DNA of 64,000 nucleotides, taken from positions 1,612,001 through 1,676,000 of the forward strand of contig NC_092329.1 in the NCBI RefSeq assembly GCF_036785885.1, written 5' to 3'. Both the position numbers and the translations under genes were made by a program. The DNA comes from Coffea arabica. Lineage: Eukaryota; Streptophyta; Magnoliopsida; Gentianales; Rubiaceae. Positions 30,104 to 58,600 of the stretch are shown here, piece by piece (positions within the stretch are counted from its first letter, which is position 1; every line of letters begins with the position of its first letter). The notes beneath the pieces were generated by a model. The model worked only from the letters and a program-made list of their open reading frames with translations. It did not search any database and had not been told where the DNA came from.

Positions 30104-30432
30104 TTAACACATATGTACTAAATGTGTAGAGGTGTGCCAAGAGAGTTCCTTTTTTTGTGATGTGGCAAAATATTATTGGACAATTTGTGGTCGTCCTTGT
30201 CCGTGAGAATTGAACGTGTTTGTGCAAAAAAAAATTCCGAATAGGAATGTTATTATTGTATTTTTAATTAACACATATGTACTAAATGTGTAGAGGTATG
30301 CCAAAAGAGTTCCTTTTTTAGTGAGATGGCAAAATATTATTGGACAATTTGTGGTCGTCCTTGTCCGTGAGAATTGAACGTGTTTGTGCAAAAAAAAAAT
30401 TCCGAATGGGAATGTTATTATTGTATTTTTAA
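30104..30432. repeat. Two-copy tandem repeat, period 164 bp
   Basis: Units 30104-30267 and 30268-about 30432 are nearly identical. Each includes TTAACACATATGTACTAAAT, a central 'GGACAATTTGTGGTCGTCC' and a TGTTATTATTGTATTTTT tail. The centre of each unit contains the short palindrome GGACAATTTGTGGTCGTCC/TTGTCCGTGAG. No coding potential is evident. Confidence 0.75.
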
Positions 30433-32418
30433 ATGAATGCTACATGCCATCACTTTCCTTGCATCCGATTGGACCCCTTTAGTATTTCTATTTTGGCTTT
30501 CCCAAGATGTATTGGAAGTTGATTGTCATCATCGTAATAATTGTTCAGTTGACTATAAGGGCAATTGTATTACAATTTTGCCCTCCCATCATATCTTTCT
30601 TGCTGATGACAACAAATTCATTTTGGTTTTACCGTTGTCTTCATCTTTTTTGTGGTCAGATCAAGAGGTAAAATTCTATTTACCTTTGGGTTGTATTTGT
30701 AAAAAACACATCCATTACTGTTGACGGCTATTGAAACTTGAAAGGATCTATCGGATCTGACTGTAGCACTTTCTTTGTTCTGTCCAAAAACTCACCGCTG
30801 CAGCTAAAGCTATGCATTCTTGCCCGGATTTTCTGCTCACACTCATGGTTAGTGATGTGTTTAGTTTTTGCATCCCTTTTTTCTATTATTGTTTATAGCA
30901 CGATAGTCTATCTTCCCTCTTACATGATTGTGTGTTTGCCAGTTGCTTTGGTTAGTTCTTATTTTCTGCTCTGTTTCTTCGAAGCGTCTTCTTCGTTTTG
31001 CTCTTGTTGACACAGATTCGTCAAGTGAGCTTTTTCTTTTAGTGAACTATTTTGTCTATAATCCTGTTTATTCCAATATGTTTTTTGGTCCGTCATTCAT
31101 CGACTAATTCAGGTTTACTTTCTCTGTTTATGGGTGTTTTCTATTTTGCCGTTGCATTAAGGTAAGGCTATTTTAAATTTTCTGTCTTCTTTGATTCTTT
31201 GTTCTACCTTTCATTTGTCCATTGGTCGTTCTTATTTGTGTTCTGCCTTTTTCTCCTCTTTTCCCTTTACATTTTGCATGCAGCTTTCTTCATATGTGGT
31301 TGCTGTAACGAGCTTTTTTTTCTTTGTCATCTTGTGTTATATATTTGGAGCCTGTATTGATTCAGGTTAGCTGATCATTCTCTCTCTTTTTTTTTAGCTT
31401 TTTGTTCTAACAGTTTTTTGTTTCTTGTATTGATAAACTGCTACAAGAACATAGAATCTACTGTTAAAAATAAGAACTTTAATTATGAGACTTGAAACCC
31501 TTCAAGACTTCAATTTGATTAACGTTTATTGATTATCATATCTAAAATCGTACTTGATCTTCACATAAGAAGATGTTATCCTTTTTTCCTTTCTTTTAAA
31601 GCAACATTTTTTCAGCTTGATAATAAGACTGGAAGAAGGAGGGGTTCATTAATAATAGCTGGGACAAGTGATAAGAAATGTACCATGAATGATTGATAAA
31701 AGTTAGGGAAAGTTATAATCAAGAAATTAAGAAGATAATGAAAGATGTGAAGCTTTTTATTATTTTCTGAGGAGCAAAAATGTTAAGTGTTATCCTTGGA
31801 AAATTGGCCATTTGGAGCAGTCAATTTGAACCAAGAACAAAGCTCGTATTGAGCCAACTCCCCAATTCATGGGAGACATTGTGAGCACTCTTCTCTCACA
31901 AAATTGTAGCAAATGTTGCTTAATCAAGAATCATTACAATTGATTACTTAGAAACATATATGAATTCAAGAGTCCTTTATGCCTTGTAGAAGTATATACT
32001 CTATCTTTCCTTCCATTTGGTTCTGTACTGGTCTCCAGGTCTTCCGACTTTCACTGGAAATCAGAAACTGCTCTACAAAGTCTTACCCACTCCAATTTCC
32101 AGGCGTCCCCCTCTCTCCTTTGTTTTCCCTTTTCCTTTTCTCAATCAATCAATCTTACTCTGCTCTTTTGCTCCTCTTCGCTATTTTTTTAACACAAGTC
32201 AATATTCTTCTCTCCATCTCTCTCTTTTTTTGTTTTTTGTTTGTCTCTCAAGTCCACTGCATTCTCCATTTTAATTTTGTGTATGCTGTTTTTGTCCCTT
32301 GATTAAATTTTCTTTTATTCTCTATTAAATTTTATTTGCTGTTCTAGATTTCCAGTTGATCTCATCTCAAGCGAACTCTTAGGCAGACAGACACCCAAAA
32401 ATACTCCAACTTTCACTA
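30433..32418. other. T-rich DNA upstream of the TatD-like exons
   Basis: No protein homology seen. The composition is strongly T-rich with CTTTTTTC-type runs, like plant introns or 5' leaders. The part 31990-32418 may be promoter and 5' leader carried along with the TatD fragment, since it runs directly into its start codon at 32419. The left boundary of the linked Helitron probably lies somewhere here or further left, but no convincing 5' terminus was found. Confidence 0.3.
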
Positions 32419-33763
32419 ATGGCGACTATCCGAATGATTGGCAAGTAACCCTTTTCTGTATTTGTCATGAATAAGGCACCGAGTTATTTTAATCATGTTT
32501 AATGATATAGTATTTGTGGGGTTTTAACTTGAACAGATATAGCAGTCAATCTCACTGGTATGTCAAATCTTAAATCTTTCTAAAACGCTTTCCGTGAAAC
32601 ATAGTTTTTTCAGTAAACCTACTTTTAATGCATAAATGAATTTCAATTACAGATGGTATGTTCAAAGGAATATACAACGGCAAGAAATACCATGTGGCAG
32701 ATATTGTTGCAGTACTCAGCAGGGCTTGGAGTGCCGGTGTTGATCGAATTATTGTAAGTATATATCCCTTAACAAAACTTTGATCTTTTTCATATGGATA
32801 TGTCTCGTGCGACTATTTTTCTGGTTGATATTACTATTAGTTTGTTGCAAAGGATAAGTTTGCAGCCTATTAGTAGGGTTTTTTTTTCAGGGGTTGGGAA
32901 AGGAGTATCAGCGGTCCCACAAAATGAAACTCTACTTGTAGTTAGATAGATGGTATTATTAACTCAGGCTGTTTGATAGTTTGGCTTGCTCAATAAATTG
33001 AGAGAATATGAACTTTGGGTCTTTTGAAGTTTCATTTTTGGAGAAGTTCAACCTCTTGTTTTAATATCATAGAGGATGGATGAGCTTGTAAAATTTGCTG
33101 ATTTGTAATTCATTCCGTTTTATTGGAGTAACAGAACTGAGAGGTTTATTTCTTGTTGGTAAGGTTGGTTATTTGCCTTCTGTAATTGGGATTAATCATG
33201 CTAAATGATTCTTTAGTTGTCTTGCATTTTCTGTCCTAGGTTACTGGTGGATTTCTAGAGGAATCAAAAGAAGCTCTTGCTATTGCTGAAACTGATGGTT
33301 AGCCAGACACGTTTTCCTTCGTTAGATTTTTTATCTTTCTCTGCCATTTGTCTCTCGCTTGGCGCCTTATACCCTATAGTCTTAGCAATCCATTTTCCCT
33401 TGCAGCAAGACTTTTTTGCATGGTTGATGTGCACCCAACAAGATGCAAAGTGACTGTTGATACTCTTCTGAATGCCATCCTTAAGTTATTGAACGTGTGA
33501 GAATAAGGATGAATGGATACATTTGTGATCGATTCAGGAATTTGATGAGAGTGGGGATCCCGAAAAGCATTTTCAGTCTCTTCTCTCATTGACTAAAGAG
33601 GGGGTTGAGAAAGGAAAGGTAAACTAAAGTGCTGCATTTAGAAGAACATAGAAAAGATTACTTTAGATACATGTATCTTCCTCAATTTTCTTAATGCGAC
33701 AATTTAATTTTTGTAAGGTGGCAGCAATTGGTGAATGTGGACTGGACTATGACAGGCTTCATT
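32419..33763 (+). pseudogene. TatD-type DNase/hydrolase gene, 5' half only
   Basis: Exons at 32419-32440, 32537-32557, 32653-32753, 33240-33297, 33406-33449, 33538-33618 and 33718-about 33763 read as MATIRMIG, DIAVNLTDGMFKG..., VTGGFLEESKEALAIAETD, RLFCMVDVHPTRCK, EFDESGDPEKHFQ and VAAIGECGLDYDRLH. This is the N-terminal half of a TatD-family metal-dependent nuclease (TIM-barrel). The usual continuation after GLDYDR is absent: the sequence leaves TatD at about 33763 and becomes MutS2-like. The first intron has GC rather than GT at its donor (ATTG then GCAAGT). The remaining catalytic half is missing, so it cannot be an active TatD enzyme. Introns are retained, so this is a DNA-level copy, not a retrocopy. 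Confidence 0.85.
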
Positions 33764-33794
33764 GCTAAAAGAATCCAATGCCAGATGATTTGGG

Positions 33795-34985
33795 GAAGCG
33801 TAGGGGAATCCAATGCCATAAACAATGCTAAAAGAATTGGCTTTGATGAGAAGATAATTAACTGTGCCCAAGCATGGATAAACAAGTTGACCTCACAGAA
33901 GGTACAGATGCAGAAAGATTTGCTGCACCAGTAACTAATGGAAGAAAGAAGTAGATTAGAAATTCAAGCAAATAAAGCTGCATCTCTTCACTCGGATATT
34001 ATGAGCATTTATTATGAGGTATGCATAAGTTGCATGATTGTAAATATTTAATCTTTGAGGAAAGAGATACTTGTTATGAGACAATATGCAATGAAAATGT
34101 TTTTCTCCTATTTTATTGTAGTCCCGGATTACCATATCTAGCCTGCTTCCTTCATTTATGTTTATCGTCACATAAGTTGCACAGAAAGCTGAAGCAGTTG
34201 CATACAGCACTAGTGTAACGTGTTTGCTCGTATTGGTAGGCAAGGAATGGCTTTTCTCTCTTCTTGGCAACTTCTGTTGCCCATGATATCTATCATTTTT
34301 TATTTTAATTTCTTAACCTATACATGTATCCATTTATATAAGTGTATTTTATTTATACACTACATGCTATTACATATAGGTGAGTACATCATATAATGTA
34401 CAAGCGTATTTTTCCCCTTTTGTTTCACTTCAACTTTTAAAAGAGGTGAAAAGTGGTGAATACTCTTCTTTGTTACCTTACAGTTTGCACCCTCTTTTGC
34501 TTCATAACTTTCTGTTTACTCCATTTTTCCTTCCTAAATTGAAGATAATAAATGCGGCAGATGACTTTGAAGGGCGTGAGACAGCTCTTGAGACCAAGGA
34601 GAGCCAACAGATCCAACAGGAATTGAAGGCTGTGAAGAGGGAAATTTAAGATATAGTGCATGAATTTGAGAACCAACTTAAAAATGCTGATGCAGATAAG
34701 TACAATCTGCTGCTGAAGAAAGCAGAGTCTGCAATTGCATCCCTTGTTGAAGCTCATCAGCCTACTGATGGTCTTTCTATTGGGAATACGGACAGTAGGT
34801 TGTATGTACCACAGCCTGGTGAGCAAATATATGTCAAGGGATTTGGGAAAAAGTTGGCTACTGTAATTGAAGCACCTGGAGATGATGACATGGTCCTTCT
34901 CCAACATGGAAAAGTCTGAGTACATGTGAATAAACACAGTGTAGGAGCTCTTGCAAATACTGGTATTAGTGGTGGAACAGCTTCT
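33795..34985 (+). pseudogene. MutS2-like (chloroplast-type MutS homologue) gene, 3' part
   Basis: In-frame stretches read ESNAINNAKRIGFDEKIINC, LEIQANKAASLHSDIMSIYY, NAADDFEGRETALETKESQQ, HEFENQLKNADADKYNLLLK, VYVKGFGKK-like and VLLQHGKV. This matches the region downstream of the ATPase in plant MutS2 proteins. An intron remains between 34018 and about 34545. The frame is broken by stops near 33934, 34647 and 34917, and the N-terminal core and ATPase of MutS2 are absent. Directly before it, GAATCCAATGCCA occurs twice within 60 bp, marking the junction with the TatD part. It cannot be functional as MutS2. Confidence 0.8.
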
Positions 34986-36057
34986 AATCAGGCATGAGGA
35001 GTAATATCAAATTTTTTAATTATTGGCGATTATTCCAAAGTTCTTAATATATTGTCCCTACGCATGATGCTATGAATTGTTCAGCATTTTTTAATAATGC
35101 TACTCTATTAAATGATTATCCTTTTTTTTTTGTCAGCCAACTTTTGGGAACACACATTATTCATCAACTTCTCAATTTGGACATATCATGTACAGTTGTT
35201 CTGAAATTGGATATTAATTGCGAGAGGAAACTAGTACTGCATGTGGACATTAGCTCTCGGCATCAGTTAAACAGAAGACAATGGGCATTTTTTCTGCACA
35301 ATTGCCTAAATGTTTTTCGTATATTTCATAGCACAATGCTCTCTATTTGAGAAGCAATGTGATATATAGGTATCAACAGACAACCTGCTATTGCTTTGTG
35401 GAAAGGCTTCTACATTGCATAGATCAGCTGATGCTTTTAACCATTGACTGGAACATATGTTGCCCTGTAATGTTTGTTTACCTCCTAATCCAACAGTTAA
35501 ACATCCTTGCGTGCTTCACCTAATTATGATTAGCTTGCTTTATGTCAATTAATCGTTCTATAGTGGAAAGTTAAGACACTAAATGTGTTTCTTATGGAAC
35601 CCGAGGGACTGAATTGGTGCAAACTCCAACTATTAGGTACTAAAGTTATTAGACATTTAAAGAATTGTCTTTTGGTTTGAGGATTTTCATTCTGAATATA
35701 ACTTTCATTTATATCATCTTCCATCAGGTGTAATTGATTGATCTGCATTGTACTTATTAGTTGAATGTTGTGATTCTCTATACTACATCAATTTTGAGAT
35801 TAAAATGATCAACTATTTGTTGGAGCATACGCTACTAAATCTGATGGCAGCGGATGTACCTGTTAGCATTGTAGGGAGTTATGAGAACTCTCAGGAGCCT
35901 TAGAAGCTTCTCCAGAACGAGCAATAGTGAGGAGGTTTCCTATGGATCTGTGTTTCAAACATCCAACAATACAGTTTCTTATTAGCTTACTCAGCAACAC
36001 TGGGCATGTCAGTCTTTGAAATTTACACTGCGCGTAGGCGCGGTGAGCACCTCCTAG

Positions 36058-37519
36058 TATATTGAATAAGCTCCTGTACCATTCTCATTGCTTCCTTTTG
36101 AGATCAACAATCTTTTAATTGGCCATTAAAAGGTTGAGATATTAATTTTACTTCTCCGGCGTCATGTTTTGTGCTAATACAAAAGGCCAGTCGGTTTTGT
36201 ACCACTGTGGGTAGTTGGTGCTAAAAAGTTCCAAAAAAAAGGACTCGATACCGCCGCGTGTGCTATTGAACTGATAAATTTTTATTTTTTTTTTACATAT
36301 TTTGTGAATACATTTTAAATTTTCATACATCAAATCGTTACAATATATTTTTTTTATAAAAATTTTTAAGATATGTAGGACTTTATTAAGTCCTTAAATA
36401 GAGGCATAAACATGATATCTATTCTAATTCTAATTCCCAAACACAGCTCAATCACGTCTCCTAAACCAACTTTGACATCCAATTTTAATCTAGTCATCAA
36501 ATAAAAAATATAACTCTAAAACTACTAAACCTCTGAAAAGACTTTTGGTTTTTTAAAATATGCCTAACATTTTGCAACCTCCCTTCTCGCAGGCATGATT
36601 CACTTTCTTCAACCTTCTTACTAGAAACTCCTTGCTCCAAAGTTTTCATTTACGCTATTGTAGGCGTCAAAAATCCTAAACAATAACAATCAGAAACGCC
36701 CTTGTGTGTTTTGCAAAAGGAACCCTTCTTTTTAGAGTTGAACTAGGGACCCATGATTATTTCATTTGGCCAATTTCTCTCTTAGCTAAACTATCTTGTG
36801 GACGAAGCACTTTTTCAATGTTCTTAAGAAACACTAAAATCTACTACTACAACCGTAACGAGCACACCAAAATCAACCAATCCAAACAGCAGCTTCCTTA
36901 GCCTTAAAAATCCACCCACAAAAAGGAATTTTAAAGAAAATAAAAAAGAAACCAGAAAAAGAACAAAACTTGCAAAATCAACCTTGACTTGACAATCAAA
37001 ACGTGCCTTCGAAGATGTACCAGTTCGTTCGCGTGATAAAAGCAATTCCAATGAGGACCGGCAATGACATGACATGCACGATCGGCACCGGACGTGACCT
37101 GTGCACTATTATATCCTATCCTTTGATGAAAGCACCACCTCCCATGCTCAGCGTGTGCCCAAGTCCGGAATTACCACTTTCAAAATGACTATCGAATGTG
37201 GTACCAAAACTCTTAACAAAAAAATCAGCGATGGGTCCTAACTTTTAAGCAACACGACAGACTAATTTACATGGTCCGTCCTAGATAACTGATAACACAC
37301 AGCAGCTGCACGGTCCCAATTCCAAAGTCTAATCCCTTCCTACATCATTTTGAACTACCAAAATGAATTATCAACACAAACACCCAACACAATCATCAGT
37401 TTTACAATGGTCGCGGAACTAAGATCAGCAGCTTATTGAGCATATATTATATGGAGGCCAGTACTGAAAAGTTAGTTGCTATATTTTCTTCTCCTCTACG
37501 AGTTTGCCACCCCTAGCTC
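36058..37519. other. Intergenic DNA with MITE-like debris
   Basis: No gene supported. The stretch 36280-36375 resembles 27820-27910 (AT-rich, ATCAAATCGTTACAATATAT and TTATAAAAATTTT motifs), suggesting two decayed copies of one repeat. The rest shows nothing recognisable. Confidence 0.3.
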
Positions 37520-44644: not shown

Positions 44645-45475
44645 TTTGTTACCTGTAGTTTTAATACTAGCAGTGTACTTTTCGAAATAGAAAGAAAAAA
44701 CAAAAAAAAAAAAAGTAGTTGACCAGTTTGTTCAATGAATCTATCTATTTAAAGAACGATCCGATCCGATCCGATCGGGGGGTGTGTCTGATTGATCTCT
44801 TTCTGTTTTTCATTCACGGGACAGGAAGGAGAAGTTTTGAGAAGAAGACTACTGTTTAGTTTGGACTTTAGATTAGTGGCAATTTTAGTTTAGACTTTAG
44901 AGAGAAGAAGACGGTGACGGTGTGGTGCATCCATGTTGTTCAGTTGGGTAGGGTATGATTTAACTCGTTAAAGCTGTTTGGTTGGGGCCATGGGACAGCT
45001 GTGATGCGGCACTCCTCACGTAATAGCCTAAGTGGAAGAGTTGGTTGGTTTCCTCTTTCTTCCGCCACTAGTGACGGGACTTATCCAGCTATGAGCTCAT
45101 TGCTAATGCCAACGGAGGTCACACACAAGTTTCATTAATGGGTCAAATCTTCATCTTAAGCCATTATGGTGGAGGCCGACGATGTTGTGATTCAAAGCCA
45201 TTATAATTTTTAATCTAGTTCATTATGCTTTTTTTTAGTTACACATCCCATCGAACTTCTAAAATGCTGCTTTAATCAAGCCATTCTGCCTATTCTTCCC
45301 GTTAATAGTGAAGCAGGATTATTTGTCTCCAAAGTTTTCAATTTTTTTTTCAAAAAAAAAAAAGTTTTAGAAAATTTCGGAGAGATTTACGGTGTATTTC
45401 CCAAAGTTTCTTCAATGGAAGAGACTCTAGAAATTTTGGGGGCAAATAATCCCGCTTCACCGTTACGGTGACTAA
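44645..45475. other. Promoter region of CP12 and intergenic DNA
   Basis: Upstream of the minus-strand CP12 start. It contains a short GATCCGATCCGATCCGATC repeat near 44758-44777. No other gene or element seen up to the Helitron 5' end at 45476. Confidence 0.35.
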
Positions 45476-45899
45476 TCTATATCTATCTATATCTATATAA
45501 ATTTGAGAAGGAATTTTTAGCAACAAGCATTCACAAACCTTCCCACTCTCAACTCTATTTTCTAGCATTTTGCATTTAATTTATTTCATAAAAAAAATCA
45601 TGGGTACGTTACACCCCCACCTTTCCCTCAAACACGAAATTAACTCCAACTAACACTCCCACGTTTTCCTCAGCCAAGAAGTTAACTCCCACTAACACTC
45701 CTTACATACCTTACTCCAACTAACACTCCTCACCCACCTTCCTACTACAATAAATATTTTCGCAGATCATCTCCATGAAGGTAAGGTATACTAGTTTCAA
45801 AATATATATGTAATTCCGGCAGATCTTAAATATCGGCTTGCACCACATTAGTACCAATTATCATTTGGAAACTATACGAATATAGTGAATATTTTAGAT

Positions 45900-46740
45900 G
45901 ATTGTGGAACCATACCCCGTTCCAAGTTTAATCTGGTCAAACTAAGAGATACAGAACAATACACGGACAATGATTTGCAATTGATAGGTATTTCATTCTT
46001 AATTAACCATACTTCTATTTAGGTTGTATATTTGAACTGGTATTACTTATACTATTTGATCTTTTGCAGATGTAATTGGTTTAGTTGAATCTGTTGGTTC
46101 ACACTATCAAACATCTATCAATGATAAAACTAAGTGTGATATACTTTTACTTGACAAAAGGTTAGTTAATAGATTCAATATCTTTAAAATATTTTATATT
46201 CTGCAAATTTTGATTTATACTTACCAAAATTCTCTAAATGAAATTTGACAGTAGTTCGGTTGATTTTATGTGATAAATTTGCAACTGATGATGGTGAACA
46301 CTTGCCTCAAACTGTTACAAAACACAATGTTTTGCTAGCCTATGGTATTTGTGTGATAAATTATAAAGGTAATTCAATTTTTTTTTCACTTTATTTTATT
46401 TAATTTTTATAGTTTATCAATAATATAGCACATTGTGCAGGAACGTCACTTAATACTATTCGAGCAAGCAAATTGTATGTCAATTACTACTTGGATTTTG
46501 CTCAATACCTACACAGTTGGTAAGTTTTACAAATATCAAAATATTAAATTATTAATAATATTTCATACCCTTACGAATATGTATTTGAAAAATTTGCAGG
46601 TTTGAGAATGATAAATGTGCTCAGAAATTAGTGACGTGGTTGCGGTCATGCAATTTTACAATGTCCCAAGCATTGTTGATATTAAATGCTAAGAGAATAT
46701 CGATATCCGAATATGCAGTTCTACCTACGGTACAATCCCT
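45900..46740 (+). pseudogene. RPA70-like (DUF223/OB-fold) gene fragment in the Helitron
   Basis: Exon-like stretches flanked by GT and AG read FNLVKLRDTEQYTDNDLQLI, DVIGLVESVGSHYQTS, LCDKFATDDGEHLPQ, VLLAYGICVINYKGTSLN and RASKLYVNYYLDFAQYLHSW. These correspond to the single-stranded-DNA-binding OB folds of plant replication protein A large subunit, a frequent passenger of plant Helitrons. The start is not obvious. A following frame (46907-47152) is basic and coiled, with no recognised family. Whether the set is still translatable was not determined. Confidence 0.6.
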
Positions 46741-47529
46741 CTCAATTAATTAAGTAATGAATAAGTATCTACATGTAGTTTAGAATTAATAATTGTAATC
46801 TATACATTCGTTGGATCGTTTTAGGTTAAATATTTTCGGATACTTGCTTACATTCAAAGTATCAACATAGATAATATGTAGGAAACCCATCTAAAGTTTC
46901 CTCACCATGGAATATGCTCGCCTACAAGTATTTCAACAACAACTAGATTTCAAACTCGCAAGATTACAAAGGAAGAAACATTTGCTTAGAAAACGAAACA
47001 TACACCGCAACGATTCCACACACCAGTTGGAAAAGCTTCAACAAGTTTGCGCTGACGAAAGAGAAATCTCAAATCAAGTCCAAAGGACAAAATCCAGGCT
47101 ACACCGATTAAAACGTCGTTCGCACCAAATTCCGGTACCGTGTTTTCTTTAAATATTGGCATTTCCATTGTAATTTCAAATATTATTCCCAATACTGTAA
47201 ATTTTTTTTTTATTTTCGATTATTTCCAATAATATAATATGTCTATAATTTTTTTCCAACCATTTTACTAATCGACTTAATTAACTTATCGAATTAATTC
47301 CCTCACCCTCTCTCTCAGTTTCTTATTTGTTTTTGGTTTTCTATTGATTTTATAAATGTATTGATTTTGTTTCTTTTGTGAGCAGTAATGGAAGATATTA
47401 TGTGCAAAGATTTCAACAGAAATCAACCTTCTTGCGAAGAACTGGAAGTATATTCTTGCCGGCTTAATTTTCCAGCGGCTTAATTTTCCAGGTTGGTCCC
47501 CTCTGCCTTTTAAGCATGTTTTGCTTTTG

Positions 47530-49381
47530 CTTTGCTTTTTGTTATGAATGATATTGCATTATTTTCTGATCATCCATTATTTCTGAAATTTTTTTACAAA
47601 ATCCTATGAACGGTTGTTTGCTTATTGTTACACCGTAAAGCAAAGATACTCAATAGTGGTATTAGATTTAAAGTTAAATATTGGACAAAAAAAGTTAATG
47701 GTATTTGATCATTTAATAAAATGATAGATGCTCTGCTCTTCAGTATTATTTTAGTTCTAAGATTTCATTAGCTATAAATTATTTATGAATATTAATTACT
47801 ACATGGATTTTCAATGTTTTACTTGCTTTTTATTTGGACAACAACCCTCACCACCGAATGACTAGGAAAATGGGAACATGATATGTCTGTTGCTGCTAAA
47901 AAGTAATAAGACTTTAGATTCAGGGTCTTATTGTTGAGGGAAGGAAGGCTTACACGAAGGCAAATGGTATGGTTTGGTTTGGTTCAAGGGACGATGACAA
48001 CTTGGGTATTGCGCTGAGCCACTTCAGTTGGTGGTCGATTAATTAAGGAGCTAGAAAACAATGTGTGGTTGGAACAAATCAGTTTCTTTTTAAAGAACAG
48101 AGTAAATTATAGTAACTACGTCTGCATGCATGCTTCTCACTCAGTCGAATGAATACATCGTCTCAAAATGGGATGCCTAAAATTTCAGTTCAAAAGGCAA
48201 ATACCAGTTTCTAACTTAAAAAGTGACGGACAAAAATGGGTTAGCTCTCCATGCATTACTCAATTCAATTGTCTACTGCTTCTTGAACTAGACATCCGCA
48301 GCCCAACCAGAAAAGAGGCTGTCATCATCTTATGAGGTGACTTAAAAACATGGGAATTCCTTGGCAGAGGTTCCAGACTACGTCTATGGCATAAGGAAAT
48401 CATTTTACTTCACAAGCTGTTGGCACTCTATATAACACCAGCTGTGACTTATGATGCTAATTGGCTGTTGGGCAATAATCACAAAGGACCTACGAAAAAG
48501 TTAATCATTTAATTTAATTTAATAGACATTAAGTTATATGGTATTTGATCCCATTAATCCAATATGTCCATATTTGACTTCTTTAGTATATCAAGCAGCA
48601 TGCCAATTGTAACGTAATAGTAAGAAAAAAAATAGCAGATGCTGAAAATGAAGTTTTGAAATTACTTTGGAATTTTTCAGAACTTTTAACAAGGTCAAAT
48701 ATATTAAAATTAAAACGCAAAGATACTCAAATACTATGAACGGTGTAACAATAAGCAAACAACCGTTCATAAGAACTGGGCTATGAGTATCTTCCTATGA
48801 ACGGTTGTTTGCTTAGTGGAGGATCGATGTTCTTTTAAAAAAAAAAAAAAATAGTACAAGAGGTAAGATGTTTAGTCATTATCTTTGTAGCATCTCTATT
48901 AAATAGGAAAATTCCGAATACTAATTGATGAGAGGAATGTTGAAGTTGATTTTCTTCCTTTTGCTAAATAAAATACGTCAGTGTCTAACTAATAACTACC
49001 ATGTTGAAAAAGGACTGTTTAATTTTCTCAAAGCATAGAATTCTGCTATTGGGTGGCAAAATACTACTTATGTTAAAAAGGGAACGTGTTGCAAGAAATA
49101 TTTGAAAGTTTTGTAAGAAAATACCAATTTATTCAAAGTTATTAACTTTGCACGTGAAAACTATGCGAGTTTTAAGTATCTCCATGACATAAAGCCTTGC
49201 CATTACAAAAAAAAAAAAAAAAGGACAAAAAAAAATCTAAAACATATGACTCCCTATTGCTTTAAATACAAGGAATGAAATTTATATGACCAATAATAAA
49301 AAAAAGAATTTGCTTTTTGTCATGAATGATATTGCATTGATTTTCTGATCATCCATTATTTCTGAAAATTTTTTACAAAAT
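47530..49381. repeat. 76-bp direct repeats bracketing a block with internal inverted repeats
   Basis: GATATTGCATTATTTTCTGA and flanking sequence occur at 47530-47605 and again at 49306-49381 with few changes. Inside, a 31-bp sequence at 47607-47637 (starting TATGAACGGTTGTTTGCTTA) is present in inverted form at about 48744-48774. Its start appears a third time, direct, near 48807. No coding sequence is recognised in the block. Confidence 0.6.
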
Positions 49382-49864
49382 CCCTTTTTTAATATAAATT
49401 TTAATTTTTTTTTCAGGATTCATCTTCCGAAAAAAGACAGTTCTTAAATGATATACACATTTTATTATATTTCAAACTATTGTTAAACAGATGTTACATT
49501 TAAATTTTGTTGATTCAATTTTTTCACCTTTATTTGTTCACCATTTTATTTTTTTCAATAATATCAGCACCATGCGTAGCACGAGTATTCACACTAGTAG
49601 CTAACTAACTGGAGAGTGGGATTTCACGGAAAAAGACATATATCTCCCTATACATGAGGAATGCGCATCACATGAAAGTTTGTACGGTTCAACTTGACTG
49701 CCGACCAGAGGGAATGGCCTAGTTGAAGCATTTTTTAGAAGTTTACTGGGTTGGATGACACAAAAATAAAATATATATATATATATATATAGTGGCCCAA
49801 TTAAAGCATTTGTAGATGTTGAGTGAGTAAAAAGAAAAGTATAGTAGGATAATGAAACTTTTTA

Positions 49865-51804
49865 GGGAAAATCGCCAATTTAGTCCTCAAACTATTTTAC
49901 TAAAGCCGATTTGGTCCCTAAAAGTTTTATCGCACCAATTAAATTCCTTAACTAAAATGCTTGTGCCAATTGAGGACTTATACGGCGTCGCCACCCAAAA
50001 CTCATATATTTGTACAGAAAACAACGGCCAGGCAGGGGTCTTTTTGAAAGTTCGCATCCTAATTTCTACGGAAAGCAAGACAGAGCCCATTTTGCATCCG
50101 AATTGGGGGAAACCGTGAAATTAGGGGTTTTCCAAGACAGAAACCCATTTTGCATGCAAATAGCGGAAGAAATTGGGGGTTTGCCCCTACTTGCTTGTAG
50201 AAATCTTGAAATTATTTGAAAATCGCGAAGTCTCATTTGCATTTTTCAAGTTGGTCTTCTGTGATGCTTCGGAATTCATAGTCCAGTCGTGTTGTATTGT
50301 CGCACATGTCTTGGCTGCTGAGGGGTTGAGGTTGATGGCACATGATGTTCTCTCTTGTGTAATTAGTAGAATTGGTGAATGTAGGAGTAATGAGTTGGTA
50401 GAGTTTATGTGGAGAGAGCATAGCAAGTATGAGTCAGATTTCTCGGTTCTTGATTCTTTGATGAGGGCGTTTGTGAATGCAGATATGGGTTCCCAAGCAT
50501 TGAAAATCTGGGATAGAATGAGGGAGGTCAGAATTAGACCAAGTTTATCAGCTGTTAGCATTTTCTTTGCGCTGCTAATTAGAGTTGGTGATTATGGTAG
50601 TGTATGGAAGTTATTTAGAGATATGATCCAAAGGGGACCTTGCCCGAATATTTTTGTGTATAATGTGATGATTCTTGGCTTTTGTAGAAAAGGGTGTGTT
50701 AGAACAGGAGAAAACTTGTTGTTTTTGATGAGGAAGTATGGTTGTGAACCTGATGTTATTGCACATAATTTGCTAATAAGTGCATATTGTGTGAGAGGCT
50801 GGACATCTCATGCTCTGAATTGGGCGCATTTTATGGCGGAAAGCGGTTGTGAACCAAGCACTGCCACATTTGTTACAATTATTAATGCACTCTGCAAGGA
50901 GGGCAACATTGTAGAAGCAAGGAAAATATTTGAAGAAATGCAAGAAATGGGTGTTTCACCAGGCACTGTGACATACAATGCTTTGATGGATGGCCATGTA
51001 AAGGCAAGAGAAATTGGTGAGGCTAATATGCTCTATGAGGAAATGCGGAATATGAGAGTTGCTCCTGATGGTATAACTTTTAACATTTTGGTTGCAGGAA
51101 ACTACAAATATGGGAGGGAAGATGATGGCAACAGGTTCTTAAGGGAATTATCTATGATGGCTTTGATTCCTGATTGTTCAATATCTGACATGTCCATTTC
51201 AGGATTGTGTTGGGCAGGAAGGTTAGATGAGGCTTTGCACTTACTGAAGACTATGCTTGAGAAGGGCATACCTGTTAGCATAATTGCCATCAATTTGCTC
51301 ATTTGTGCTTACAGCAGAGCAGGACTGCATGAGAAAGCTTTTGAAGTGTATAACATAATGACAAAATTTGGTCTTACTCCTCCTGCTTCCACATCTACTT
51401 CTCTGCTGATAGGTCTAACTAAAGTAGGGAAGCTTCAAATTGGATTGGATATTTTCACTGGAAAAATGCATCAAAATGGTAGAACGTAGATGAACTATTT
51501 ATTACCACTGATGCTAGCAGCTATATTCTGTCTTGGAAAACCCCTAATTTCATAGGTTTCCCCCAATTCGGATGCAAAATGGGCTCTGTCTTGCTTCCTG
51601 TAGAAATTAGGATGCGAACTTCTAAAAAGGCCCCTGCCTGGCCGTTGTTTTCTGTACAGATATATGAGTTTTGGGTGGTGACGCCGTATAAGTCCTCAAT
51701 TGGCACAAGTATTTTAGTTAAGGAACTTAATTGGTGCGATAAAACTCTTAGGGACCAAATCGGCTTTAGTAAAATAGCTTGAGGACTAAATTGGCGATTT
51801 TCCC
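49865..51804. mobile_element. Pack-MULE (Mutator-like element carrying a PPR gene fragment)
   Basis: Terminal inverted repeats 49865-50142 and 51526-51804, about 278 bp, differ at only a handful of positions; both end GGGAAAATCGCC at the outer edge. A perfect 9-bp target-site duplication, AACTTTTTA, flanks them at 49856-49864 and 51805-51813. No transposase is present. The 1.38-kb interior is almost wholly a pentatricopeptide-repeat coding sequence. High TIR identity and the exact duplication point to a recent insertion. These are the defining features of a Pack-MULE. Confidence 0.93.
50335..51489 (+). CDS. P-type pentatricopeptide repeat protein fragment inside the Pack-MULE
   Basis: An uninterrupted frame runs from 50164 to the stop at 51487-51489. 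Its first in-frame ATG is 50335, giving 384 aa. About nine PPR units are visible, with typical phrases: NIFVYNVMILGFCRKG, DVIAHNLLISAYCVRG, STATFVTIINALCKEG, GTVTYNALMDGHVKAR and DGITFNILVAG. The upstream frame also reads as PPR-like helices, so the copy begins inside a parent gene and lacks the organelle-targeting N-terminus. The stop lies 36 bp before the right TIR. PPR proteins bind organellar RNA, one repeat per base. Without a transit peptide this product would not be expected to reach an organelle unless a new leader were supplied. The lack of any stop or frameshift over 1.3 kb is notable; whether it is expressed is unknown. Confidence 0.85.
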   Translation: MAHDVLSCVISRIGECRSNELVEFMWREHSKYESDFSVLDSLMRAFVNADMGSQALKIWDRMREVRIRPSLSAVSIFFALLIRVGDYGSVWKLFRDMIQRGPCPNIFVYNVMILGFCRKGCVRTGENLLFLMRKYGCEPDVIAHNLLISAYCVRGWTSHALNWAHFMAESGCEPSTATFVTIINALCKEGNIVEARKIFEEMQEMGVSPGTVTYNALMDGHVKAREIGEANMLYEEMRNMRVAPDGITFNILVAGNYKYGREDDGNRFLRELSMMALIPDCSISDMSISGLCWAGRLDEALHLLKTMLEKGIPVSIIAINLLICAYSRAGLHEKAFEVYNIMTKFGLTPPASTSTSLLIGLTKVGKLQIGLDIFTGKMHQNGRT

Positions 51805-52508
51805 AACTTTTTAAATATTTTGGTTACTTGTACTTTGCTTATTTATTTATTTATTTATATATGTTAAAAGAAATAATTGCAAAATAGGTAGGGGTGGGTC
51901 CCAATCAATATAATTATTAAATTCAGCCCAACCCGATAATTGAATCAATTGGCCTGGTGATATGTGTTTGACCGGACAAGAAATTGATCCACTCAAATCT
52001 GAACAAACTTGTTTGACCTAGCGGTTCAACAAAAAATTTGGCCGATTTTTTAATTGACACAATTTACTTCTTTTTTTTTAACAATCGTGAATCTTTTATT
52101 TTCGAAACAACACGTGTATAGTATATGTTTTTGATAAGATTTGTATATTTGATCTTCATTTAAATGTGCATAAGATTTTACCACTTGCTTAGTTTTTATT
52201 TGATAACTACATATATTTTTATAAATTTGTTTACTTTTTTATTGTATAATTAATTCTTTTAACTTTTAAAGTTTAAACTGACAATATTTAAATAGTGAAA
52301 AAATTAAATTGTTCTTAAAAAAATAATGAAGAAATGATGCTATATTTTTTTAAACAAGTGATATGATTTTTTTATACTTAACTATATTATTTATTTATGT
52401 AAAAGTACGCTAAAATGAAATTAAATCTTCTATTAACATGTATATATTCATTATATATCATTCTAAGTACAATAATTAGTTTTTAAAAGCACTTTGTTAT
52501 ATATTTTA

Positions 52509-53978
52509 GGGATAATTGCAGAAACCTCCCCTGAGGTTTCTGACATTTGCACTAACCTCCCATGTGGTTTGAAAAATTACACTGACCTCCCCTGAGGTTA
52601 CTAATCCTTTGCAAATTTAGTCCAAACGATTAAAATATTATTTTAGGGAGTGAAATTAGACTTTTATACCAGATTTGCCCTTTGTGCTACATATCCACTG
52701 AATGACAAAGTACTATAAATCAATTAATAATTAATAAATTTTAATGAGTATAATTTATGGGCAAACACGCATTACTCATTTAAAGTACCAGCTCTTTACG
52801 AGTATTTTACTTTCAAATATTTAATTTATGATAAATATATCAATATTTGTAAGTAAAATTCAAAAATTGTTATAGTAATATTCTTGCAAAAAGGAAATCA
52901 ATAGGTTATTTATTTAATATAAATTAAATATTTTTTTAAAAAAAATAAATGGCCCATAAAGTATTAATTTTTTATGGCTTTCATCCATTACACGAGTAAA
53001 GTATTCGCTCTTTATGTGTATTTTATTCTGAATCATTTAATTTATGTTAAATACATAAATGTTTGTAACTAAAATTGAAAAAGTGTTATATTAATATTTT
53101 TACGGAAGAGAGATTGGTAGGTTTTGTCTTTAACAAAAATTAAATATTTGAAAGTAAATACAAATCTGTATTTGAGGGTAAATATTTTTATTAAATTAAA
53201 TGTTTAAAAGTAAAATACCCTTAAAGAACCGGTACTTTAAATAATTACCGGCTCTTTATAGGCAAACATGCATTACTCATTTAAAGTGCCTGCTTTTTAC
53301 GGATATTTTACTTTCAAACATTTAATTTACGATAAATATATCAATGTTTGTTAGTAAAATTCAAAAAGTGTTACAGTAATATTCTTGCAAAAAAGAAATC
53401 GGTAGGCTATTTATTTAATATAAATTAAATATTTTTTTAAAAAAATGACCCATAAAGTATTAATTCTTTATGGCTTTCATCCATTACATGAGTAAAGTAT
53501 TGGCTCTTTATGGGTATTTTATCCTGAATCATTTAATTTATGTTAAATACATAAATGTTTGTAACTCAAAATTGAAAAAGTGTTATATTAATATTTTTAC
53601 GGATGAGAGATTGGTAGTTTTTGTATTTAACAAAAATTAAATATTTGAAAGTAAATACAAATATGTATTTGAGCGTAAATATTTGTATTAAATTAAATGT
53701 TTGAAAGTAAAATACCCATAAAGAGTCAGTACTTTAAATAGATAATGCATATTTGCCTATAAACTATACTTCTTAAAGTTTATTAATTGTTAATTAATTT
53801 GTAATATTTTGTCATTCATTGAACATGTAGTACAAAGGACAAATTTGGTAAAAAATTATAATTTCACTCCCTAAAACAATATTTTAATCGTTTGGACTGA
53901 ATTTGCAAATGATTAGTAACCTCAGGGGAGGTCAGTGTAAATGTCACAAACCTCAAGGGAGGTTTCTGCAATTATCCC
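52509..53978. mobile_element. Mutator-like non-autonomous element (copy C), internally duplicated
   Basis: Outer ends GGGATAATTGCAGAAACCTC and its reverse complement form TIRs of roughly 190 bp. A perfect 9-bp target-site duplication, TATATTTTA, lies at 52500-52508 and 53979-53987. The interior is a two-copy tandem repeat (period 501 bp; units from 52761 and 53262). Each unit has inverted arms sharing TTTACTTTCAAA-type sequence, so the core can form long hairpins. No protein is encoded. Confidence 0.85.
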
Positions 53979-54128
53979 TATATTTTATGTATGTTAAATT
54001 AGTAATTTATATTTATAAATATTAAATTTATACTCGCTGATTTAATTAGTGATTCACTAATTGAACCACACCACTGGTCCATTGATTCAGTCCCTTGTCG
54101 AGTTCTTTTTCCAGGCGGGTTTTAATAA

Positions 54129-55233
54129 GGGGAAATCGTCCAAAACGTCCCTCACATTTTGTAAAATAATTTTTTTCGTCCCTCACTTTTAAAAGTGTAA
54201 TTTTATGTCCCTTACATATTCACATCTGTCAAATTTAGTCCCTAACTAGGTTTCTGATCATTTTTTTGCCGGAATCCATCACGTGCAAGGCACGTGATCA
54301 TTTTTTAAGGGTAAATTTGTCAAATTATATTTTACATAATCTAATATATAGTCCTCCACATTTTATAAAACAAATTTTTCGTCTTTCACATTTTATAAAA
54401 TGATTTTTTCATCCCTCACATTTCACAAAATGAATTTCTTCATCCCTCATATTTCAAAAAATGAATATTTCCATCCCTCACTAATTATGTGTGTGAGGGA
54501 AACCCTAAAAAAAAAAGTGTGTGAATACATTTTGTTTAAACACATGTATATGTCTATTAGATTTTGCTTAATAATACGAATAGCATAACTATATGCATGT
54601 GTCTATTTGATTTCACTTAACAATACGAATACCATATATTATACGTGATCATTTAATTTCATCTAGTATTAGATAGTAAAAAATCTTGCATTCATTGTCA
54701 AGTTGGCCAATAAAACTATTTTCGGTCAAAATACAATAAGAATATGCAAATTAAGGTTCTATTGGTAACTATTAGTCATAATCATACAAAAAGAGAAGAT
54801 AGTCCACAAGTTGGGCCCAATTACATACATGTGTTTATTTTATTATTATTAAGCAAAATCAAATAGACATATACATGTGTTTAAAAAAAATGTATTCACA
54901 CACATAATTAGTGAGAAATGAAAAATTCATTTTTTGAAATGTGAAGGATGGAGAAATTCATTTTGTGAAATGTAAGGGATGAAAAAAATTATTTTATAAA
55001 ATATGAATGACTATAGATTAGATTATGTAAAATATAATATGACAAATTTACCCTTCAAAAATGATCACGTGCCTTGCACATGATGGATTTCGGCCAAAAA
55101 ATGATTGAAAATCTAGTTAGGGACTAAATTTGACCGATGTGAATATGTAAGGAACATAAAATTACACTTTTAAAAGTGAGGGATGAAAAAAGTTATTTTA
55201 TAAAATGCGAGGGACGTTTTAGACGATTTTCCC
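54129..55233. mobile_element. Non-autonomous Mutator-like element (copy B)
   Basis: TIRs of about 400 bp beginning GGGGAAATCGTCCAAAACGT on the left and ending ACGATTTTCCC on the right. A perfect 9-bp duplication, TTTTAATAA, lies at 54120-54128 and 55234-55242. The TIRs carry the same GTCCCTCACTTTTAAAAG and ATCACGTGC motifs as the element at 23976-25392, so both belong to one family. No coding capacity. Confidence 0.88.
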
Positions 55234-55639
55234 TTTTAATAACTATTATGCCAATCGGGGTTTCAACGGCTATGTTGATTGATGGATGAACGTTGAGAGA
55301 GCGGGATGGAGAGCACTTCACTGCTTAAGGGAGGGAGCAATTGCCAATTTGCCATATAAAGAGAGAGAAGAAAAGGTAAAGTGGGGCCTAGCCGCTAGTG
55401 CTCGTGGGCCGGTGCATTTCGAAATTCAAACAAAACAAAAAGGAACCCCTCACTCTCCTTCTTCTTCAATCTACAAGTTGAAAAGAAGAGGAAAGAAGAA
55501 GAAGAAAAAAAAAGCCCCTCTCCCTCCGTGACCGGCGATTCAAGATTAGCTTACATTTGTTATTGCTTCTTCATTTTTTTCCAATAAAATTAATTCCCAA
55601 TCCAAGTAGTACTACTGTAGTTTTTGTTTTAACAATTGT

Positions 55640-58600
55640 ATGGATACGGAGAAGAAGGCGATGGCGTCCGATTGCACCTTGAATAAGCAGGAGTCAGAGT
55701 CGGAGTGGTTGTCGTTGGACCCAGAAATGGAGTTTTTGGCATCGAAACAAGAAACTGGGAACGAGTGGGAGCTGTTCAAGGAAAATGTGAGGCCTTTGAA
55801 GCGGGGCCGCAACGTCGCTCTTCTCAACACTGCTCTCAAATCCCACTCATCCTCCTCCACCCTCAGGACTCAACTTCTTCACCATCGCAGGTTTTACGCC
55901 ATTTTCTTTCCATCCTCTCCTCATCAGATTCTCTTCTACTAGTACATTTTTTCAAGACCTTTTTCCCCCTTCTCTTCCTCTATTTCTGTTATTCTTTTTA
56001 TTTAGGTTCTTTTTTTTTTTTTTCTCTTTCAAAAAGATGGGAAAAAAAAATTACCAACTACTACTCCTTATATGCATAACCAGGAGGTTGATTGAAGCCA
56101 TAGATGAATATGAAGGTGACGATCCTCTCCAACCTTGGCTTCGGTAAGTACTCTCACCTGCTACTTTCTACTTGTCTCATTCTTTCCTTATTTTTCTACT
56201 TATAGTTATTCCGGAGTTCCAGTCTAGTAGTGCGTGTGCGCTTTTTTCTTTTTCTTTTCTTGCAGAAATACTACGCACCATACCTCTGCTCGTTCCTGTT
56301 TGTTCCTTTCATGTCGCAGGAGCACCATGCATCATAGGGTCATGTTTTCTTCAATTGTTCATTAGCATTTAACTAGTCTGTCTCGCATGTATTGTATGTT
56401 CAACCAATCCCTATCCGCATCCCATATTCATCATCAACAGTAATACCTTCCAATCCAATTCCAACAGGTGCGTTAAGTGGGTTCAGGAGGCTTTTCCTGC
56501 TGGTGGAGACTCCTCCGGCTTAGTAGTCATCTATGAGCAGTGTGTCCGCTCTTTTTGGCACCAGGACCGCTACAAGGATGATCTTCGCTATCTCAATGTT
56601 TGGTTGGAATATGTGCGAGGGTTTTGCCTTCCCTTTTTATTACTGCTCTCTATCTTTTCCTTCTTCATGTTCCCTACATGTATGTCTTCTGATTTTGTTT
56701 TCCTATTTTTCGATTTCAAATGCATCCTTAGGCGGCAAATTGTATTGATGCTCAAGTCATCTATAGTTTTCTCGAGGCAAACAAAATTGGCCTCACACAT
56801 GCTTCCTTCTATATATCCTTTGCTCTTCACATGGAATCCAAGAACAAAACTAGAACTGCTAATGAAATCTTCAATCGAGGCATATCTATGTAAGTTTTTG
56901 TCTCTTTAGAATTTGCCTCTCTCTTCCCCCAGCCCCCCAATGGCTGAATAGATTGGTCGTTAAACAAGATCAAGTATCTTGAGTATGTTCGGGTTAACCA
57001 AAAGGAGGAATTTCTGTACATTAATTGTCTGTTCATATTCTGTGCTTCAGGTTAACCTAGAGAAAGAGTTTCTTGTTCAGAAATGTATCTTCTTTGATCC
57101 CGTATTTGTTTTATCAAATATCTGCCTTTATGTTCTGAGTTATTTTCTAATGAACGAGCACTATTGAGTTGTTGTCAGGCTTTAAGCTTACTCATAACCG
57201 TTAATTACCTAGTAATGCCCAATGTATATGCAGAAAACACACTTCTTCGTCCCTACCTGTATAAATAGTGCTTACTGATCTTTTGTATTTGCACGACTAC
57301 ATTTGTCTGTGTTCCTGACTAGTGTTGCTTTGGCATCACGGTTGATATTACTGAGTAGCTGACTTGCAACATTATAGTCTGATTTCAATTGGTATTCCCC
57401 TAATCGTTAGCTTCTTATTTTTCTCTTTCTACCCTATAAAATGGTGCCAATCTCTCCCTCTTTGCAATTTGCTTCTTAATATAACGGGCAGCAAAAAGCA
57501 TAAACAAAGCATAAAATGTGAGAGCCTCCTCCCTCCAGTTTAGTGAAGTATGTTTCCCCCCTATTATTTTAATTGCTTCCTTCTGACCAGAGTGACCTTC
57601 TCCTTCACTGTAAAAGCTTTTATGGTGGACTGGTTTCTGTATGGGTATGGTCTGCTTGTCATATAACTCCAGTTTAGCTGGCGGTTGCAGTGGATGAACT
57701 CTAGTTCTGGAATTTCGCAATCCCTTCCCTTTTATACAAGCATCCTGCATCTTATTTGGATTCACTCTGAATTTCTCATACCGACCATATCTTTCTCAGT
57801 AGATTGGTATATCATGCCAAGCTGAACAGGAATATTTTTGTGATTGTTGTTGTTGTCTGATCTCAAGTGTTGCTATAGATTCTTGAATGTTGATTGTTTA
57901 CAATGGCAATTGATCGTGTTATTGTTGGGGCGTATATGATTTTTGCAAAATACATTTATTGATTTTCCTTTCCTCTCTTCTATTTTTTAAAATATTTTCC
58001 CCAAAATTTTCCAGTTGATTGGTTAGCTTCCATCTGGTTGTTTGAAATGTCAACTGCCAAGCTATATTCTTGTTTACTGTTCTAGGAATGCACGACCAAT
58101 TGAAAAATTGAAGGCAGCCTATAAAAAGTTTCTGAATCGGTCAATGAGAAGGTCAATAGCTGTAGAGGTATGCAAATTCATATGTCACCTTGTTCTTCCA
58201 TTTACACTTGTCTTAGTTTCTACTCTGAATTTTTTTAAATTGTCAGGAGGACAGAACAGAGAATCAGTTCCCACTTAGAAGTTTTGGGACTGTACTGGCT
58301 ACGGGAGAACGCCGTAAGTCTGATAACTGTATTTTCTTTTTCCTTCGAAGTTACACTTGTGTATATAACTGTTTTTTCACCTGCAGGAAACCAGGCAGAT
58401 GATTCTGATTTTGCTATGAAAAAGTTGAAAACAGATAGGTAAGATGATAGAATGTCTGAAGGTCTTCCTGCCCCTTATTTTACTCAACATTTATATCCAA
58501 GTATCCTTTGTAGTATTACTGTTGTGAATTTCACGTTTGCCAGCACTAGTGTGTATATCAGAGTTATGGGTTTTAAAGCTGCAAACTTTCAGCTCTTTGT

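Follow-up and report, generated by a model that had tools for sequence, protein, structure and literature searches.

Pack-MULEs, for which Jiang et al. 2004 is cited, are known from rice and other plants. In rice, 36% of the Pack-MULEs (481/1337) are multicopy and 40% are transcribed, the protein-coding ones being rare, and template-switch gap filling is discussed for Pack-TIRs (PMC8277862). Other papers report Pack-TYPE elements with DNA from several loci (PMC8903248), captured fragments that are usually non-functional and in many cases expressed (PMC13317346), TIR promoters responsible for the expression of Pack-MULE interiors, with a TSD of 9–11 bp (PMC3310237), and a PPR fragment in grapevine CACTA elements (PMC2528002). 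Among the open-licence papers listed by a literature search, none could be recognised by its title or the start of its abstract as describing a PPR-carrying Pack-MULE.

The window analysed here is a stretch of 64,000 nucleotides of Coffea arabica DNA, and its positions 49865–51804 are a non-autonomous Mutator-like element (Table 1). Of the features by which a Pack-MULE is recognised, the following were observed: long TIRs, a TSD in the range of 9–11 bp, homology of the TIRs to those of transposase-bearing elements, a host gene fragment inside, no transposase inside, and a parent elsewhere with no TIR match in the 9 kb around it. The locus shares with published Pack-MULEs (PMC8277862, PMC8903248) the long TIRs, the 9-bp TSD, the host gene fragment, the lack of an internal transposase, the presence in the genome of transposase-bearing elements with related TIRs, and several copies with distinct TSDs. 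It may differ from other Pack-MULEs in the length of its fragment, 1,266 bp, and it differs in that this fragment has stayed open in two copies of the family and that a single assembly contains the earlier cargo, both donors and the empty alleles. Tomato PM-ZIBP is likewise a multicopy plant Pack-MULE with an identified parental gene, whereas its copies mostly have tandem TIRs, where the coffee family has single ones, and its cargo is different (PMC3310237). Grapevine Cactavine-5 is also a class II transposon with a PPR-gene fragment, but it belongs to CACTA and not to Mutator, and its PPR piece lies downstream of the transposase frame in the opposite orientation (PMC2528002).

Table 1. Features of the element, in positions of the 64,000-nucleotide window.
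Feature	Position	Strand	Remark
Left 9-bp TSD, AACTTTTTA	49856–49864	.	Single copy in the empty allele on C19
Left TIR, 278 bp	49865–50142	+	Related TIRs, 88–96% identity, flank MuDR-type transposase elements
MULE subterminal DNA, 41 bp	50143–50183	+	Common to transposase-bearing elements
In-frame stop TAG, last of three in the interval from the TIR to the PPR frame	50161–50163	+	
Open frame, stop to stop, 441 codons + stop	50164–51489	+	First in-frame ATG 50335 (384 aa)
Captured middle part of a PPR gene	50177–51442	+	99.05% to C4:23.75M, 98.1% to C3:23.49M; parent residues ~126–544 of 915
Remnant of segment X (earlier cargo), 84 bp	51442–51525	+	Last codons and TAG stop of the frame
Right TIR, 279 bp	51526–51804	-	
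Right 9-bp TSD, AACTTTTTA	51805–51813	.	

An earlier note, made from the letters of the window, had described long TIRs, a perfect 9-bp duplication, and a frame of about nine PPR repeats that ends 36 bp before the right TIR, and each of these points held. The two arms are 95.3% identical over 279 columns, with 12 mismatches and one indel. The duplication of AACTTTTTA is perfect, and the stop of the frame (TAG, 51487–51489) is 36 bp away from the right TIR. Nine repeats in register were recognised by an ad hoc 35-residue scan, in which the weakest of the nine scores below the best shuffled window. The PPR identity of the frame is given by Pfam PPR_2 (E 2.1e-65) and NCBIfam TIGR00756 (E 2.3e-61). 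A transposase inside the element, which the note had taken as an argument against its reading, was not found in the interior: each of the five Pfam families that match the main frame is a PPR family, and the interior outside this frame consists of MULE terminal DNA and segment X (see below).

The TIR search listed 40 matches, 40 of 399 candidates having been scored, and many of them form inverted pairs. Five longer elements with related TIRs (L037–L041) carry MuDR-type transposase domains, named DBD_Tnp_Mut, MULE and/or SWIM. PF03108 and PF10551 were found in L038, L040 and L041, PF03108 in L037, and PF04434 in L037, L039, L040 and L041, so that L040 and L041 have all three; the scan covered 10 frames of the five elements and then 3 more, which is a part of their frames. 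Several transposase frames in L037–L039 are interrupted, the transposase being identified by its domains. Immediately inward of its left TIR, the window element has 41 bp that are the MULE family's own subterminal DNA. Two further TIR arrangements were observed. A 20-kb TIR pair (L046/L047, C21:8.12–8.14M) encloses pieces of MuDR-type transposase together with copia-type gag/integrase frames, apparently nested insertions. At C12:17035800–17038100 (L048), TIRs at 367–645 and 1617–1895 lie 1.25 kb apart in the same, not inverted, orientation.

Comparison of the interior with the genome, which the earlier note had proposed as a way to find the parent, identified the donor as an intact PPR gene at C4:23.75M. 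The parental frame is intact on C4 and on C3, with 929 codons from stop to stop; counted from the first Met, the C4 copy has 915. The 1,266-bp cargo omits the first 125 residues (1–125) and the last 371 (545–915). No TIR match was present in the 9 kb examined around the parent on C4 or C3. The reconstructed common state of the element copies differs from the C4 allele at 3 sites and from the C3 allele at 15, and the donor was therefore a C4-like allele. The GC content is 0.402 in the captured segment, 0.400 in the parental frame and 0.37 in the window, a difference too small to argue for a GC preference in capture. Across a 5.6-kb stretch that contains the gene, the C4 and C3 loci are 97.9% alike; on the other flank the similarity drops to 73–89% in broken pieces.

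Genome-wide, at least 44 matches to the interior exist, and of those listed, 8 represent five copies of the composite element (the C4 copy in two pieces) and the two parental alleles. The other 36 are confined to ~40 bp of the MULE subterminal DNA (30 matches) or to the end of segment X (6 matches). The five copies, located in the window and at C20:2.31M, C8:42.19M, C21:41.39M and C4:20.51M, each have a distinct perfect 9-bp TSD, which means that they arose by transposition.

The flanks adjoining the window element match only repeats and the window itself, and the homologous chromosome was located through a gene-containing piece further to the right (window 55300–58000). This piece has one strong homologue, C19:181741–184419, at 97%; the third match in the list covers 38 bp. 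At the corresponding site, C19 has the left flank, a single AACTTTTTA and 16 matching bases of the right flank, and the element is absent; beyond these 16 bases, ~58 bases are missing before the alignment resumes. Since the homologous site is empty and has a single AACTTTTTA, the insertion is heterozygous. The earlier note would have counted it against its reading if a related allele had a full-length PPR gene at this site but no TIRs; the C19 allele has neither PPR nor TIRs, so the comparison favours an insertion. Empty alleles were seen for three of the five copies, namely those in the window, on C21 and at C20:2.31M. The empty allele of the C21 copy, on C22, can be aligned for ~130 bp at one flank and 60 bp at the other, the alignment having a 3-bp gap next to the insertion site; that of the C20:2.31M copy, on C19, matches for ~130 bp at one flank and for only ~16 bp at the other. 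Near the C8 copy, the C7 sequence diverges some 40–50 bp short of the insertion point, and the search for an allele of the C4 copy returned none. The pairing of homologous contigs is apparent and was checked locally for C3/C4, C19/C20, C21/C22 and partly C7/C8. With its parent gene, transposase-bearing relatives, sister copies and empty allele, the locus is a recent Pack-MULE with PPR cargo, as the earlier note had proposed.

Other parts of the window also differ from the homologous chromosome or are rich in repeats. To the left of the element, window 45393–49592 has no equivalent at the corresponding position of C19, whereas the sequence to either side of it aligns, and is probably one or more other haplotype-specific insertions; window 30105–36284 is likewise without a match at its C19 place. 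Window 52500–55240 contains inverted and tandem copies of a ~300-bp unit with many 91–96% matches across the genome, and is probably another transposon family.

The interior of the element also preserves part of an earlier cargo. Four sister elements (L015–L018) have the same ends and carry a segment of ~809–829 bp, here called X, which occurs without TIRs at C19:48.68M (L020, 97.6–98.9%) and C20:1.25M (L019, 95.4–96.5%). The window element retains only the last 84 bp of X, with homology extending to ~51533, and PPR DNA takes the place of the rest. Because the stop and the last 84 interior bp are segment X, the PPR piece replaced part of the cargo of an earlier Pack-MULE. The last ~15 codons and the stop of the PPR frame derive from X, so the frame is chimeric at its 3′ end, which the earlier note had not envisaged; the 5′ end supplied by the TIR that the note thought possible finds no support. 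Stop-to-stop frames at L020 have at most 115 codons, none longer than 88 overlaps X, and the GC content is 0.332; X was therefore rejected as a gene and called non-coding, and may still hold short exons. L019 and L020 show 96.8% similarity across 4.4 kb. Because they sit near the opposite ends of C20 and C19, out of keeping with the collinearity observed elsewhere, we call them related loci and not alleles. A translocation, a duplication or an assembly error could have put them out of line.

At the 5′ switch, the resident element and the donor share TTTG, the 3′ end of the 41-bp subterminal DNA, whereas the 3′ switch contains two bases (TT) that correspond to neither side. The join of the older cargo to the right TIR has the short shared sequence TTCT. 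The TTTG microhomology and the two unexplained 3′ bases suggest template switching in gap repair, and the junctions resemble the template-switch gap filling of Pack-TIRs (PMC8277862). We propose that a MuDR-type element with TIRs of ~278–338 bp would first have lost its transposase interior and gained the ~809 bp of the apparently non-coding segment X. In one element of this kind, most of the interior would then have given way to 1,266 bp copied from the middle of the intact C4 PPR gene, so that 41 bp of MULE subterminal DNA remained at the left end of the interior and 84 bp of X at the right end. The new element would finally have moved to five or more sites, one of them in the window, presumably by the transposase of related elements acting in trans. 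The order of the two captures is suggested by the 84-bp remnant of X.

The five copies are in different states of decay. The window copy and the C20:2.31M copy have an open frame; that of the C8 copy is shifted by 5 extra bases, that of the C21 copy is shifted by one extra base and interrupted by a Trp-to-stop change, and that of the C4 copy is split by a 4.9-kb insertion and has two 6-bp deletions. The left TIR of the C20:2.31M copy (L009, C20:2303600–2310000) holds an insertion of ~370 bp. The insertion in the C4 copy (L014, 3783–8700) has 4,918 bp, the ends TGTGA...TCACA and a 5-bp duplication, CTTTG; it was considered as an LTR element, but self-comparison gave no LTR pair and we leave it unnamed. 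The shared substitutions at 50995 and 51382 group the copies in conflicting ways, so that the tree of copies is not clean, through recurrent change or exchange. The left and right TIRs of the window copy differ at 12 positions, whereas only 6 separate its left TIR from the left TIR of the C4 copy; part of the left/right difference therefore predates the insertion. The few TIR differences that the earlier note had read as a sign of youth are real, but for the same reason they are an unreliable sign, and we rejected dating by left/right divergence.

Selection was assessed by a scripted count of unique derived changes among the five copies over 50182–51438, with six changes at 51063–51069 (five in the C8 copy, one in the C21 copy) excluded because they lie beside the C8 indel. 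Pooled over the copies, 30 amino-acid-changing changes and 1 stop were found versus 12 silent ones, a count dominated by the C21 copy, to which 21 of the 43 are private. Changing and stop changes make up 72%, against neutral expectations of 73–79% under three mutation models (binomial p 0.27–0.87). The two parental alleles, in contrast, differ across their whole frame by 12 changing and 16 silent changes, a departure from neutrality (p 3e-5 to 8e-4, with expectations computed on the captured segment); inside the segment the numbers are 6 and 10 (p 4e-4 to 3e-3). The difference between copies and parental alleles has a Fisher p of 0.024 for the whole frame and 0.032 for the 6:10 within the segment. 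The copy-to-parent comparison suggested by the earlier note sets copies compatible with neutrality (31:12) against parental alleles at 12:16. Private to the window copy are only 3 changing and 2 silent changes, so few that selection on this copy would be compatible with them. The positions by which the window copy can be distinguished from its sisters and the parent are 50190, 50223, 50343, 50714 and 51296. In simulated neutral decay of a frame of this length, counting stops and leaving indels aside, 86% of the frames were stop-free after 5 substitutions and 79% after 8. An open frame is therefore weak evidence of function; it is expected at this age, and is probably open because the element is young.

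The earlier note had also considered a young chimeric gene with its 5′ end from the TIR. Transcription would start in the left TIR and a useful 384-aa PPR protein would be made from ATG 50335, a reading that we regard as very unlikely, although the frame is open in two copies, all nine recognised repeats lie downstream of this ATG, and TIR promoters are reported to drive Pack-MULE interiors (PMC3310237). An ATG in the TIR, 49957, is in the PPR frame, but three in-frame stops follow, and translation from the TIR into the PPR frame would consequently need splicing. The first in-frame ATG past these stops is 50335 itself, inside the PPR piece, and three out-of-frame ATGs (50154, 50264, 50306) precede it. 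Moreover, three of the five copies have a broken frame, the pooled substitutions show a neutral pattern, the homologous chromosome lacks the element, and an open frame is the usual outcome of the simulation. A functional PPR gene is expected to have a full-length frame with its N-terminal region and to be under purifying selection; here the N-terminal 125 and C-terminal 371 parental residues are missing, and purifying selection is not seen in the pooled copies (31:12). The organelle-targeting signal of a PPR protein would be expected in the missing N-terminal region.

A regulatory role is also very unlikely. Read-through from one or both TIRs would yield sense and antisense RNA and, from these, small RNAs that damp the parental PPR gene, for which the window copy offers 1,266 bp at 99% identity to that gene, and the family several copies with TIRs on both sides; captured pieces are described as siRNA reservoirs for donor genes in maize (PMC13317346). 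On the other hand, the sequence gives no sign of transcription, and a literature search listed no paper that joins Pack-MULEs, siRNA, parental genes and antisense. A wider version, in which the five copies would form a very young, still polymorphic regulatory family whose TIR-driven sense and antisense RNA, nearly identical in sequence, would adjust the single parental gene, and in which the window copy would add an untargeted PPR protein of 384 aa, seems very improbable. Finally, a PPR gene, full-length or partial, might have lain here first and been bracketed by two MULE ends by chance. This is conceivable only when the PPR frame and the TIRs are viewed in isolation, and we give it almost no credence: the homologous chromosome has a single target site with neither PPR nor TIR, four further copies of the composite have distinct TSDs, and the distinct TSDs together with the empty C19 site refute it.

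We therefore hold, with a probability of about 0.9, that the element is a multicopy Pack-MULE formed in at least two capture steps, whose cargo most likely has no function as a protein and is open through its youth. In kind it is ordinary, a young multicopy Pack-MULE whose cargo is long and whose origin is recorded with unusual completeness. As a gene, it is probably of no importance. As a case it is instructive, since one assembly holds the transposase-bearing relatives, the earlier Pack-MULE with its first cargo, both donor loci, the re-packed element, sister copies that have decayed to different degrees, and empty alleles. The family shows the replacement of cargo inside an existing Pack-MULE with junctions that can be read, and it is a caution that age alone can account for a long open frame in such an element.
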